Shown in pieces: positions 13,709 to 32,495 of a stretch of 34,870 nt of DNA. Origin of the DNA: Candidatus Gastranaerophilales bacterium (lineage in GTDB: Bacteria > Cyanobacteriota > Vampirovibrionia > Gastranaerophilales > Gastranaerophilaceae). A program made the translations under genes and the position numbers. A model generated the notes under the pieces. It saw only the letters and a program-made list of their open reading frames with translations. It ran no database searches and was not told the origin of the DNA. How positions within the stretch are numbered: the stretch's first letter is position 1; each line of letters opens with the position of its first letter. The DNA lies in the NCBI GenBank assembly GCA_944325025.1, contig CALUYN010000019.1:1-34870 (forward strand), given 5' to 3'.

Positions 13709-15799
13709 ATGAAAAATATTGATATGAGTACGTTTGCGCACCTTCGGGGGGGGGGCACTCTAGGCTCCGCCGGAGGCATTGGGACAACTAGAAGCAAAGA
13801 CGCTTTCACATTAGCTGAGATGATGGTTGTCATGCTGATATTGAGTATTGTGATGGCAGCAATGGCGCCTGTAATGACAACGAGAAATAAGCTTGACCAA
13901 TCATCTCCCTGGGTATGGGCAGAAAACGGATCAGATGCTTACTATGGTTTAGGCGATGCGCAGGTTGCCATGATAGGTCAGCAGGAAGCCCAAGATACTG
14001 ACACAAATTCTCGTTTAGTAATAAGTACAGGTCTTGAGAAACATCATATCTTGTTTAAAACAGACAATACAGTAAGCGGTCGGTTAGAATTAAGTAACCA
14101 TAGCGTGAAGCTAGGTGAAGCAGCTAACGGCGCACAGGCTGAGTCATCTAATTCTGTCATGATAGGTAATCAGGCTTTAGGTTATGGAGAGGATTCAGTT
14201 GCTATAGGTACAGCTAGCCGTGCCAACACTTATTCAACGGCAGTCGGTGACAGCAGCGAAGCCAGTAATTCTTCAACAGCTTATGGTTATGGAACAAAAG
14301 CAGCAGGAACAGGCAGTGTATCATTAGGATATAAATCAGAGGCAAATGGATCTAATTCAATAGCAATAGGTAATAATAATATAGTTGATAATCAAGGAGC
14401 AATTTCTATAGGTTCACCTTCAAAAGCAGGTGCAAATCATGCAATATCTTTGGGCATGAATTCTTCTGCGACAGGCGTAAACAGTATTGCAATAGGCGGG
14501 GGTAATGAGAGTATAGATGCAGCGAGAACAAATTCTTCATCCTCAGTAGCCATCGGTACAGGCACAACAGTTTCAAGCAACTACTCAATAGGTATTGGTG
14601 ATACAACGACAGTAGATGTAAATTCTTTAGCTGCAATTGCAATAGGTCATTTAGCAACTGTAAATGGTAATTATGGAATATCTATGGGATATAGAGCAAC
14701 CGGAACAGGAACAAATTCAATAACCATTGGAAATAACTCCTTTGCAGAACCAATTGGTTCTATTGCAATAGGTAATAATGCACAGGCCAGTATCGGTTAT
14801 CCCTCCAATAGTTATGCAGCTATTGCCATAGGGTTATCTTCTGTTGCTTCCGGTGCTCATTCGATTGCTATAGGAGGTTCAGACAGCTCAACCAATACTG
14901 TTAACAGTTCAGAAGCAACAGGCACACATTCAATCGCAATAGGTTATGGAGCAAAAGCTCCCGGAACTTACGGGATTGCTATTGGAGATGGTGCAAAAGC
15001 TTCAGGTTTAGATAATATTGCTATAGGTATGGATGCCTGCCGATTTGCAACCGGATCAAACAAAGTATGTATTGGCGCTAATTCAGGTCCAAGTTCCACT
15101 GATAAATTACGAAGTGGTTCAGCTGAAATAATTTATCTCGGGACTACAACTTCTACAGTTTATATTCCTGGTAATTTAATTGTAGGTAAAGACTCATTAT
15201 TTGGGGCTAGAATTGTAGATGATCAAAGAAACTATAAAGTGTATCTGAAAGGCGGCAATAAATGGGTAGGTGATCCTTGGGTATATCTAGGAACCGATGA
15301 TTATAAAGGTGGAGATGATAATTTTTATAGAGTTAATAACGTTACAGTAGGAGCTTTTGGTCCATTTAATGATGGAACTACTGTCAGTAGTTTGTCAGAC
15401 CGCCGATTAAAATACGTAGGCAAGGAAAGCACATCAGGTCTTGAAAAAATCAAACAATTGAAAGTCTTTAACTACACCTTTAAAAAAGACGAAAAGAAAA
15501 CGCCTCACGTTGGTGTAATCGCTCAGGATTTGCAAAAAGTCTTTCCTGACGCAGTTACAAAAGCCAAAGACGGTTTTTTGAGAATACGTTTTGAAGACAT
15601 GTTCTATGCGATGATAAATGCAATAAAAGAACTTGATTCACGTATCACAGCGCTAGAAAAAGAAAATCAGCAAATGTCTGAGATTCTGAAACAAGTTCAG
15701 AATGACAACAGAAAACTTCAGGATGACAACAGAAAGCTTCAGAATGACAATAAGAAATTTGAAGCTCGTTTAAATGCTCTTGAGGCAAGACTTAAATAG
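13709..15799 (+). CDS. Prepilin-type surface protein with YadA-like head repeats and S74 chaperone domain
   Basis: The 696-aa protein has four parts. (1) A leader ending SKDA|FTLAEMMVVMLILSIVMAAMAP: a type IV prepilin/pseudopilin signal with cleavage expected after A32 and E37 at +5. (2) About residues 140-460: at least a dozen degenerate repeats of the form 'S.AIG..A.A.G', the left-handed YadA head fold of trimeric autotransporters. (3) About 563-645: SDRRLKYVG...VGVIAQDLQKVFPDAV, an S74 intramolecular chaperone domain with the Ser563/Lys568 dyad. (4) About 645-696: a heptad-repeat coiled coil (QNDNRKL). A GGGG-containing Shine-Dalgarno precedes ATG 13709. S74 domains trimerise phage tail spikes and are usually cleaved off, so a trimeric adhesin exported or anchored through a pilin-type pathway is plausible. 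Codons 13-16 lie in a 10-G tract. A terminator follows at 15858. Confidence 0.85.
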   Translation: MKNIDMSTFAHLRGGGTLGSAGGIGTTRSKDAFTLAEMMVVMLILSIVMAAMAPVMTTRNKLDQSSPWVWAENGSDAYYGLGDAQVAMIGQQEAQDTDTNSRLVISTGLEKHHILFKTDNTVSGRLELSNHSVKLGEAANGAQAESSNSVMIGNQALGYGEDSVAIGTASRANTYSTAVGDSSEASNSSTAYGYGTKAAGTGSVSLGYKSEANGSNSIAIGNNNIVDNQGAISIGSPSKAGANHAISLGMNSSATGVNSIAIGGGNESIDAARTNSSSSVAIGTGTTVSSNYSIGIGDTTTVDVNSLAAIAIGHLATVNGNYGISMGYRATGTGTNSITIGNNSFAEPIGSIAIGNNAQASIGYPSNSYAAIAIGLSSVASGAHSIAIGGSDSSTNTVNSSEATGTHSIAIGYGAKAPGTYGIAIGDGAKASGLDNIAIGMDACRFATGSNKVCIGANSGPSSTDKLRSGSAEIIYLGTTTSTVYIPGNLIVGKDSLFGARIVDDQRNYKVYLKGGNKWVGDPWVYLGTDDYKGGDDNFYRVNNVTVGAFGPFNDGTTVSSLSDRRLKYVGKESTSGLEKIKQLKVFNYTFKKDEKKTPHVGVIAQDLQKVFPDAVTKAKDGFLRIRFEDMFYAMINAIKELDSRITALEKENQQMSEILKQVQNDNRKLQDDNRKLQNDNKKFEARLNALEARLK
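13746..13755 (+). repeat. Poly-G tract (10 G) in the leader of the prepilin-type gene
   Basis: Ten consecutive G lie in codons 13-16 of the 13709 gene, before the prepilin cleavage site. Gaining one G brings TAG into frame 16 codons on or less; losing one brings TAG within three codons. Both switch the gene off. Such tracts are classic slipped-strand phase-variation sites in surface genes. The surrounding leader DNA is clearly more GC-rich than its neighbours. Confidence 0.75.
15682..15706 (+). repeat. Family-B repeat copy inside the coiled-coil coding region
   Basis: TTCTGAAACAAGTTCAGAA plus TGAC within this stretch matches the intergenic copy at 30605-30627 in 21 of 23 positions. The two differences (T/C and A/G) are compensatory and keep the hairpin paired. 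It is translated as ILKQVQND, the start of the terminal heptads, and the following heptads repeat its CTTCAGgATGAC end. Confidence 0.6.
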
Positions 15800-31902: not shown

Positions 31903-32115
31903 ATGGGTATAAATAAAGATTTAAGAATATTATTAGTAAATGAGGCTACGACTATTAAGAAATTAGCAGAAATGGCAAATAAAATTTCTGATAAGAAGTT
32001 TACTGCTGATGGAATTTCCCAAAAACTAAACAAAGGTACAATGAAGTATGATGAAGTTCAGTTTCTTGCGGGAGTTCTCGGGTATGAAATTGAGTTTAAA
32101 AAAATTAAAGCTTGA
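31903..32115 (+). CDS. Small HTH-like protein (LLM/DUF6471-type), 70 aa
   Basis: ATG 31903 is chosen because the promoter places the transcript start there; an ATG at 31876 lies upstream of the -10 box. The 70-aa protein reads LRILLVNEATTIKKLAEMANKISDKKFTADGISQKLNKGTMKYDEVQFLAGVLGYEIEF, a Cro-like helix-turn-helix layout with a long turn. I recall similar 'SQKL.RGT.KYDE' proteins in anaerobic bacteria, possibly DUF6471. It is a probable DNA-binding regulator, perhaps acting on the inverted repeat at 31802-31845. A palindromic repeat begins directly after its TGA. Confidence 0.6.
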   Translation: MGINKDLRILLVNEATTIKKLAEMANKISDKKFTADGISQKLNKGTMKYDEVQFLAGVLGYEIEFKKIKA

Positions 32116-32184
32116 CCCTCTCCCGAATTTCTAACTTTCACTTAAGCTCAAGTTGAAATTCAGCCCTCTCCCGTTTGGAGAGGG
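32116..32184. repeat. CCCTCTCC-family palindromic element abutting a stop codon
   Basis: CCCTCTCCCG starts at 32116, the base after the TGA of the 31903 gene. CCCTCTCC (32164-32171) pairs with GGAGAGGG (32177-32184). The family is the same as at 15895-16125 and 34635. Between here and 32202 there is no gene. Confidence 0.6.
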
Positions 32185-32201
32185 AAAAATCGTAACAGCA
32201 C

Positions 32202-32229
32202 TTGAAATTTTCAAAAAATAGGTTATAAT
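32202..32229 (+). promoter_or_regulatory. Strong promoter of the small RNA at 32236
   Basis: TTGAAA (32202-32207), a 16-nt spacer and TATAAT (32224-32229): near-consensus sigma70. No ORF of any length follows on this strand, only structured RNA and a terminator. Confidence 0.65.
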
Positions 32230-32232
32230 ATA

Positions 32233-32262
32233 AGAAAAGGGCGTGCGGATTGCCCTCCGCAC
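32233..32262 (-). terminator. Terminator of the micro-ORF transcript
   Basis: On the minus strand GTGCGGA-GGGCAA-TCCGCAC is followed by GCCCTTTTCTTA. The same DNA encodes the first hairpin of the opposing RNA. Confidence 0.55.
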
Positions 32263-32330
32263 ATTAAAAGCCCAGTTATTTGAGTTTAAGCGTTAGTATT
32301 ATCAGAAAGATAAGCACTAACGCTTTTTCA
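32236..32330 (+). ncRNA. Small structured RNA, possible antitoxin antisense RNA
   Basis: The promoter at 32202 predicts a start near 32236. The transcript would form a GC-rich hairpin GTGCGGA/TCCGCAC (32243-32262). Its 3' end is an intrinsic terminator: AAGCGTTAGT (32288-32297) pairs with ACTAACGCTT (32316-32325), continued inside by TTATC/GATAA, and a T run follows to 32328. The length is about 94 nt. It is exactly antisense to most of the hydrophobic micro-ORF on the other strand (32276-32347), the layout of type I antitoxins such as RatA or SR4. The RNA prediction is good; the antitoxin role is inference. Confidence 0.55.
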
Positions 32331-32347
32331 GTTATACTGAAATCCAC
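32276..32347 (-). CDS. Hydrophobic 23-aa peptide, candidate type I toxin
   Basis: On the minus strand GGGAGGTGATAGA precedes GTG 32347; GGAGGTGAT is a nine-base match to the 16S rRNA tail, the best Shine-Dalgarno in the window, 7 nt from the start. The frame runs 23 codons to TAA. The product is M-DFSITEK, then the membrane-spanning stretch ALVLIFLIILTL, then a basic KLK end. Small size, one membrane helix and a basic tail fit type I toxins. A terminator follows 14 nt later and an antisense RNA covers the 3' two-thirds. No homologue is recognised. The start is GTG rather than ATG, and a chance ORF is possible. Confidence 0.45.
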   Translation of the reverse strand: MDFSITEKALVLIFLIILTLKLK

Positions 32348-32495
32348 TCTATCACCTCCCTTCTTCTATCGGTTTTACAAATTTGAAGTTTGCGCCGTAG
32401 AAGTGTGGATATGATAATAGGGCTTACCCTTTTTATTTAATAATATATCGTTTTTATTTGAAAAGAAATCGTTTAAAAAAAGTATTTCTAAGCGC

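Follow-up and report, generated by a model that had tools for sequence, protein, structure and literature searches.

According to a recent paper, type I toxin-antitoxin systems were known only in Proteobacteria, Firmicutes and Tenericutes before a cyanobacterial candidate was described (PMC12390103). That candidate, MsoT1/MsoA1 of Microcystis aeruginosa, was presented in 2025; its RNA is antisense to the 3′ end of the toxin ORF and the 3′ UTR, and the toxin has two predicted membrane helices (PMC12390103). Among the established systems, TxpA/RatA and BsrG/SR4 have convergent transcripts, and the antisense RNA overlaps the 3′ part of the mRNA of a small hydrophobic toxin, of 59 residues for TxpA and 38 for BsrG (PMC8309996, PMC4147584). 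RatA leaves the translation initiation region untouched (PMC4147584); its overlap of about 75 nt lies outside the ORF. In AapA/IsoA, which has several chromosomal copies, a toxin mRNA of 225 nt is closed by long-distance 5′-3′ pairing with its Shine-Dalgarno sequence masked, the 3′ end is truncated, the antisense RNA is 80 nt long and the AapA3 peptide has 30 residues (PMC6733600). IsoA3 masks the Shine-Dalgarno region of the truncated mRNA. Ibs/Sib combines a very short peptide (IbsC, 19 residues) with a cis-antisense RNA in a multi-copy repeat of 140 nt, present five times in MG1655 (PMC8309996, PMC4147584), and Sib extends over the ribosome site as well as the complete ORF (PMC4147584). A basic C-terminus is common among known type I toxins, and a 15-residue IbsC with no fewer than 10 hydrophobic residues is still toxic (PMC8309996).

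Gastranaerophilales are placed in Candidatus Melainabacteria by NCBI. A type II HigB/HigA system is reported from a melainabacterial genome (PMC4914512). Among the open-licence papers listed for lineage terms and wider terms, none described a Gastranaerophilales or Melainabacteria type I system, and MsoT1/MsoA1 was the only cyanobacterial type I candidate found. The main text of PMC12390103 does not contain the words Melainabacteria or Gastranaerophil.

Here, we investigated a small locus in a 34,870-nt stretch of DNA from a Candidatus Gastranaerophilales bacterium, called the window below. Comparison of its sequence with relatives makes it likely that the locus is one copy of a new Gastranaerophilales family of type I toxin-antitoxin modules. 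A first-pass annotation of the window had reported a 23-codon ORF on the minus strand with a nine-base Shine-Dalgarno match, and TTGAAA-N16-TATAAT on the plus strand; on re-reading the sequence, all of these coordinates are correct. The ORF encodes the peptide VDFSITEKALVLIFLIILTLKLK. The nine-base match ends 3 bases before the GTG start codon, with a gap of 7 bases between GGAGG and GTG. Two other claims of that annotation hold as well: a terminator follows the ORF in the list of our terminator scan, and a plus-strand RNA of about 94 nt with its terminator hairpin inside the ORF is predicted from the promoter and hairpin positions. See Table 1 for all features of the window locus.

Table 1. 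Features of the window locus, with positions numbered along the window
Feature	Position	Strand	Remarks
Antisense RNA promoter, TTGAAA-N16-TATAAT	32202..32229	plus	11/12 consensus matches
Predicted antisense RNA, ~94 nt	32236..32329	plus	ends predicted from promoter and hairpin positions
Presumed antisense terminator, hairpin and T-run	32288..32328	plus	hairpin 32288-32325, inside the ORF; TTTTT run 32324-32328; the minus strand here is codons of the hydrophobic helix
Predicted toxin mRNA, ~200 nt	32235..32434	minus	from the fold; -10-like TATTAT/TATATT near 32440-32447, no good -35
Toxin mRNA terminator, GGGC-hairpin-GCCC-TTTT	32235..32273	minus	hairpin 32243-32262; scan lists 32263-32242
Presumed toxin ORF, 23 codons, GTG start	32276..32347	minus	hydrophobic run ALVLIFLIILTL, basic C-terminus; frame under purifying selection
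Shine-Dalgarno sequence AAGGGAGGTGAT	32351..32362	minus	core GGAGGTGAT at 32351-32359
Leader stem (helix 4)	32363..32403	minus	CTTCTACGG (32395-32403) with CCGATAGAAG (32363-32372)
Anti-Shine-Dalgarno segment ATCATATCC in leader	32407..32415	minus	pairs with the Shine-Dalgarno sequence in the MFE structure
Toxin mRNA 5′ end AAAAGGGTAAGCCC	32420..32433	minus	predicted pairing with both sides of the terminator base

The geometry of TxpA/RatA and BsrG/SR4, to which the locus had been likened, holds in part. The transcripts are convergent with a 3′ overlap, and the predicted antisense RNA stays outside the ribosome site as in TxpA/RatA. However, the overlap here covers most of the ORF (codons 7–23, with the antisense terminator within the ORF), unlike that of RatA, the peptide is shorter than TxpA or BsrG, and the mRNA fold resembles AapA/IsoA. 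The likeness to AapA/IsoA, compared by description, consists in a toxin mRNA of similar length, a small antisense RNA, several copies, and a 5′-3′ closure with a masked Shine-Dalgarno sequence, which for our locus is predicted only. Unlike IsoA3, the predicted antisense RNA leaves a gap of about 21 nt to the Shine-Dalgarno sequence, and the 3′-end truncation shown for AapA/IsoA is one that we infer here. Ibs/Sib shares with the module the very short peptide, the cis-antisense RNA and a multi-copy repeat of similar size, whereas the predicted antisense RNA here covers, of the ORF, codons 7–23 only. No Rfam or Pfam match links the module to Ibs/Sib or TxpA/RatA. MsoT1/MsoA1, again compared by description, is likewise a type I candidate, from the neighbouring phylum of the Cyanobacteriota/Melainabacteria group, and likewise has an antisense RNA to the 3′ part of ORF and mRNA; it differs in its predicted number of membrane helices. 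We therefore read the modules as a new family of putative type I systems that resembles TxpA/RatA in geometry and AapA/IsoA in mRNA folding.

A DNA search with a 301-base region around the locus found three further copies, of about 200 bases, in the window's 1.76-Mb genome, and a match in 24 of 40 genomes including its own, several of which consist of the ~30-base promoter only. We collected 40 copies from the genus, aligned 35 of them and built from this alignment a covariance model, R1, which spans the region from the Shine-Dalgarno sequence to the toxin terminator. R1 matches 25 of the 34 genus genomes at E up to 0.001, with five copies in the window's genome. Across the order, 131 of 287 genomes match at E up to 0.01, and these belong to 30 of 50 genera; the weakest matches, near E 0.001–0.005, could be chance. 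There are 1 to 10 matches per genome. The class sample gave matches in 55/194, one of them outside Gastranaerophilales (E 9e-4). In the phylum sample, which spans 108 genera against 50 in the order sample and whose share outside the order is not given, 57/244 match at E up to 1e-4, all within Gastranaerophilales. Among named genomes, 35 stretches fit an exact pattern; their titles are Candidatus Gastranaerophilales, Melainabacteria, uncultured bacterium, Cyanobacteria bacterium UBA947 and ‘Fusobacterium sp. CAG:439’. The last of these (L129, FR900457.1) carries the module, and its title is probably wrong. Phage or plasmid cargo was also considered; with the patterns and modes used, there was no match in phage or plasmid collections, nor in three pattern scans of viral contigs, and this candidate was rejected.

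Distant versions were seen in other families of the order. One (L025 1395-1502, genome G032) has a 35-codon ORF within the common 5′/3′ RNA frame, and another (L197 433-555 and 1249-1371, genome G029) has tandem 40-codon ORFs containing TSEKELIIILIMLLTL. Short promoter matches recur in many relatives. For example, a strong 31-base promoter that is 97% identical lies at about 285-315 of L198 (G000:C9), where it precedes a gene that looks pilin-like by eye; R1 finds no module at that gene (L007). Within the window itself, the N-terminus of a 696-codon ORF (13709-15799, plus strand) looks, by eye, like that of a type IV pilin; the ORF also has repeats that resemble trimeric autotransporter heads (AIGxxS...), and its C-terminus resembles an intramolecular chaperone domain.

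The 40 genus copies and 63 distinct further model matches, from 62 loci, make up 103 copies of the module. The ORF is kept in 97 of them, namely in 96/98 of a main set and in L074. Left out of the main set were L062, which has lost its start and has an internal deletion; L071, which diverges past its first codons; L072, which lies at a contig end; L074, in which the ORF is intact but the 3′ part is odd; and L075, which lacks its 5′ half. Within the main set, L139 is cut by the end of its stretch and L166:-876 lacks leader and start. The copies that are not intact are thus cut by ends (L072, L139) or degraded (L062, L071, L075, L166:-876). A few of the 98 members may be one locus counted twice; the two sets were deduplicated separately. 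The Shine-Dalgarno motif GG[AG]GGTG or GGTGGTG precedes 91/98 members. The best plus-strand promoter in the 66 bases past the toxin terminator scores at least 10/12 in 68/72 copies, a count that leaves out 27/99 copies in which the script did not recognise the toxin terminator; single-base shuffles of the genus regions reach this score in 4.4%. Peptide, Shine-Dalgarno sequence and antisense promoter, which the first-pass annotation had proposed to check for joint conservation, are therefore kept together. The pattern that it named as pointing to a mere small RNA, a broken ORF beside a kept plus-strand promoter, is clear in one copy only, L062. The same annotation had listed a GTG start and the lack of a recognised homologue as weak points. 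The start is no weakness, as the 96 homologous ORFs begin with GTG (44), ATG (36) or TTG (16), and homologues are many, yet the peptide has no Pfam, NCBIfam or PHROGs model. Neither module nor peptide had a usable match in Rfam, searched both at the gathering score and up to E 10, or in Pfam, NCBIfam or PHROGs, bearing in mind that short peptides limit such family-library searches; NCBIfam returned one irrelevant sub-threshold match, for one relative only.

The 96 ORFs encode 80 distinct peptides of 19–26 residues. By eye, their consensus is xxFS[IV][TS]EKALxLILLIIxxLK, and a shorter subtype contains NTEELxIILxILLVLK; the subtypes differ by two codons, in frame. The hydrophobic run has a median of 12 residues, and in 77/80 distinct peptides at least one of the six C-terminal residues is K, R or H.

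At one genomic site, some close relatives have the module and others lack it. The iron-alcohol-dehydrogenase gene that adjoins the window copy is present in 24/34 genus genomes, and R1 finds a module beside it in three, the window genome, G020 and G045. Among these 24 dehydrogenase loci, fewer than 100 upstream bases are covered in L174 and L188, and the upstream stretch of L194 was not included. A weak R1 match in L180 (E 0.005) is not at the upstream site but close to the gene's far end. The site is empty in L181, L182, L183 and L186, where a small upstream ORF is followed directly by the dehydrogenase promoter. At the occupied site, the window copy encodes an EKAL peptide, and G020 and G045 encode NTEEL peptides with other terminator hairpins. 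Elsewhere, we observed arrays of 2–4 copies, mostly at 290–340-base spacing, with different peptides. Beside the window copy, a ~70-codon ORF (31903-32115, plus strand) is helix-turn-helix-like by eye and has no Pfam match; its homologues precede the alcohol dehydrogenase gene in L181, L182, L183, L186 and L184, and this ORF therefore belongs to the site and not to the module. An interspersed repeat of about 70 bases (CCCTCTCC...GGAGAGGG) occupies 32114-32187. Contigs C37 and C2 of this genome carry copies of it that are 82% identical, and a relative of it adjoins the module in L176.

It could be that the module encodes a small regulatory membrane peptide which is not toxic, has a normal cellular role and has its level set by the antisense RNA. 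We regard this as unlikely. In its favour, peptide and antisense promoter are both conserved, and many small single-helix membrane proteins are not toxins. However, the patchy presence, the empty sites, the one to ten matches per genome and the tandem arrays with different peptides are unlike a housekeeping gene. Furthermore, double masking of translation, which is predicted for this module, is a habit of type I toxins such as hok and AapA (PMC6733600).

The coding capacity of the family was analyzed by a frame test on core segments, for which 73/86 ORFs were long enough. Across 72 distinct 17-codon core segments, the reading frame has a pN/pS of 0.47 and no stops, against a pN/pS of 0.73–1.76 and 4–330 stops in the other five frames. 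The pN/pS pairs of related sequences are non-independent, which leaves the zero-stop result unaffected. The palindrome constrains the same bases. Second codon positions have the lowest mean entropy, 0.43 versus 0.79 and 0.91. This pattern of substitutions indicates that the peptide frame is under purifying selection, and the sequences point to a selected gene of 19–26 codons for a hydrophobic peptide, preceded by a strong Shine-Dalgarno sequence. The same data bear on the idea that the module is a non-coding repeat, either a small RNA gene or a short palindromic mobile repeat, with an ORF that is there by chance. The module is indeed palindromic, multi-copy and, bar one match at E 9e-4, confined to one order in the samples searched, and a non-autonomous mobile repeat could resemble it. 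However, selection is specific to one frame without stops, second codon positions are the least variable, the Shine-Dalgarno sequence and start are kept, and the peptide subtypes differ in frame. The frame test largely refutes this explanation, which we consider very improbable.

The predicted antisense RNA is complementary to codons 7–23 and the 3′ UTR of the toxin mRNA, and the start codon is outside its reach. It has a predicted fold of -35.9 kcal/mol (z -6.1 against dinucleotide shuffles). Its promoter converges on the peptide gene from a fixed place and, judging by the copies compared, is conserved. In the hairpin shared by the antisense terminator and the ORF, changes on both sides were found at 6/16 pairs among 35 members. 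The simple terminator scan does not list this plus-strand terminator, the stem of which is bulged. Read on one strand, the palindrome would be the terminator of the antisense RNA; on the other, it encodes the peptide helix. In copies of the NTEEL subtype (e.g., L043, L045, L176 and L184), the T-run past the antisense hairpin is interrupted (TTCTTCTG), with 5–6 T in 9 still; this interruption speaks against the type I reading. That the plus-strand RNA acts mainly in trans as a small RNA for other genes, with the peptide module as a local target only, would fit its strong conserved promoter, its stable two-hairpin structure and paralogous copies that could cross-regulate, but its complementarity to the mRNA of its own module is complete, and the module itself explains the covarying hairpins, so we hold this highly unlikely.

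We then consider the toxin-strand RNA, whose predicted fold is -74.7 kcal/mol (z -8.5 against dinucleotide shuffles). Both RNAs thus fold far better than shuffled sequences, and the complement of the toxin terminator is the 5′ hairpin of the antisense RNA. In the MFE structure, the 5′ end pairs with the base of the terminator, AAGCCC with GGGCTT (32268-32273) and AAAAGGGT with GCCCTTTT (32235-32242). When this window structure of 60 pairs is mapped onto the 35-member alignment, 87.6% of cells are paired, against 33–48% when it is slid by 1–3 columns; helix 3, formed by the anti-Shine-Dalgarno segment and the Shine-Dalgarno sequence, is paired in 85% of cells. Changes on both sides occur at 24/60 pairs, including 6/7 pairs of the toxin terminator hairpin and 5/9 of the leader stem, and the covariation score is 0.257 versus 0.151 for shuffled alignments, in a test whose fold was taken from one member and which somewhat favours that structure. 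Of five covariation measures, one barely exceeds its shuffles, namely the number of pair types (61 versus 58, reached by 55/500). For the nine-base Shine-Dalgarno core, the mean probability of being unpaired is 0.14 in the window copy; it is below 0.5 in 35/35 members and below 0.3 in 32/35.

The 5′-3′ lock was analyzed further in single members. Pairing of at least 5 bp is expected in 31/35 genus members and 12/15 diverged copies, and the lock is not predicted in the other 4/35 and 3/15. Shuffling the first 14 nt of the 35 members reduces the mean 5′-3′ pairing from 10.2 to 1.8 bp. By eye, the lock partners co-vary between subtypes: GGGTAAGCCC goes with GGGCTT..GCCC, GGGTAAGCTCC with GGGAGTT..CCC and AGGGTAAACCCT with AGGGTTTT..ACCCT. 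Inside the genus, the AAGCCC/GGGCTT helix is conserved without covariation. In a swap test of the 5′/3′ duplex, for which 82/98 members were usable, the member's own partner is better in 68/73 of type A, 1/8 of type B and 1/1 of type C; the test fails for type B, the second subtype, and is not counted as support there. Taken together, the models indicate that the fold of the toxin-strand RNA is conserved and covarying, with its 5′ end paired to its 3′ end and the ribosome site masked. The promoter of this strand is less clear. A promoter of at least 10/12 lies at a fitting distance in 14/35 genus copies and not in 21/35. At the window copy, the promoter scan lists none for this strand, and the best score is 8/12. 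Lacking a recognisable -35 here, the window copy may therefore be weakly expressed.

As a mechanism, we propose that the toxin-strand RNA would be made as a translationally closed mRNA of about 200 nt, in which the 5′ GGGTAAGCCC would pair with the terminator base and a leader segment would mask the Shine-Dalgarno sequence. This mRNA would become open to translation on losing its 3′ end or on refolding. The presumably abundant ~94-nt antisense RNA, from the stronger promoter, would pair with the 3′ half (codons 7–23 and the 3′ UTR), leading to cleavage of the duplex, probably by RNase III, or to a block of elongation. If the antisense RNA falls, the peptide would be made, insert into the cytoplasmic membrane and slow or kill the cell. 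Among the points against this, the hydrophobic run is, at 12 residues, short for spanning a membrane, and the predicted antisense RNA does not reach the ribosome site. The run is not too short for a toxicity like that of IbsC, because the minimum for IbsC is 10 hydrophobic residues.

Tentatively, and with a little more doubt than confidence, we suggest a joint reading of these observations. One palindrome would serve as antitoxin terminator, as toxin mRNA hairpin and as coding sequence of the toxin helix, and the peptide, the closed fold and the antitoxin 3′ end would be forced to co-evolve. The cassette would spread as a unit of about 300 bp, and at fixed sites one peptide subtype would be exchanged for another. 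Paralogues may be told apart by the variable terminator hairpin as a specificity tag. The family would then be lineage-wide and the first type I system in Melainabacteria. If true, a family found in 131/287 sampled genomes of a melainabacterial order would widen the known range of type I systems. It would also offer many natural variants for the study of a single stretch of DNA that acts as terminator, RNA lock and membrane helix.
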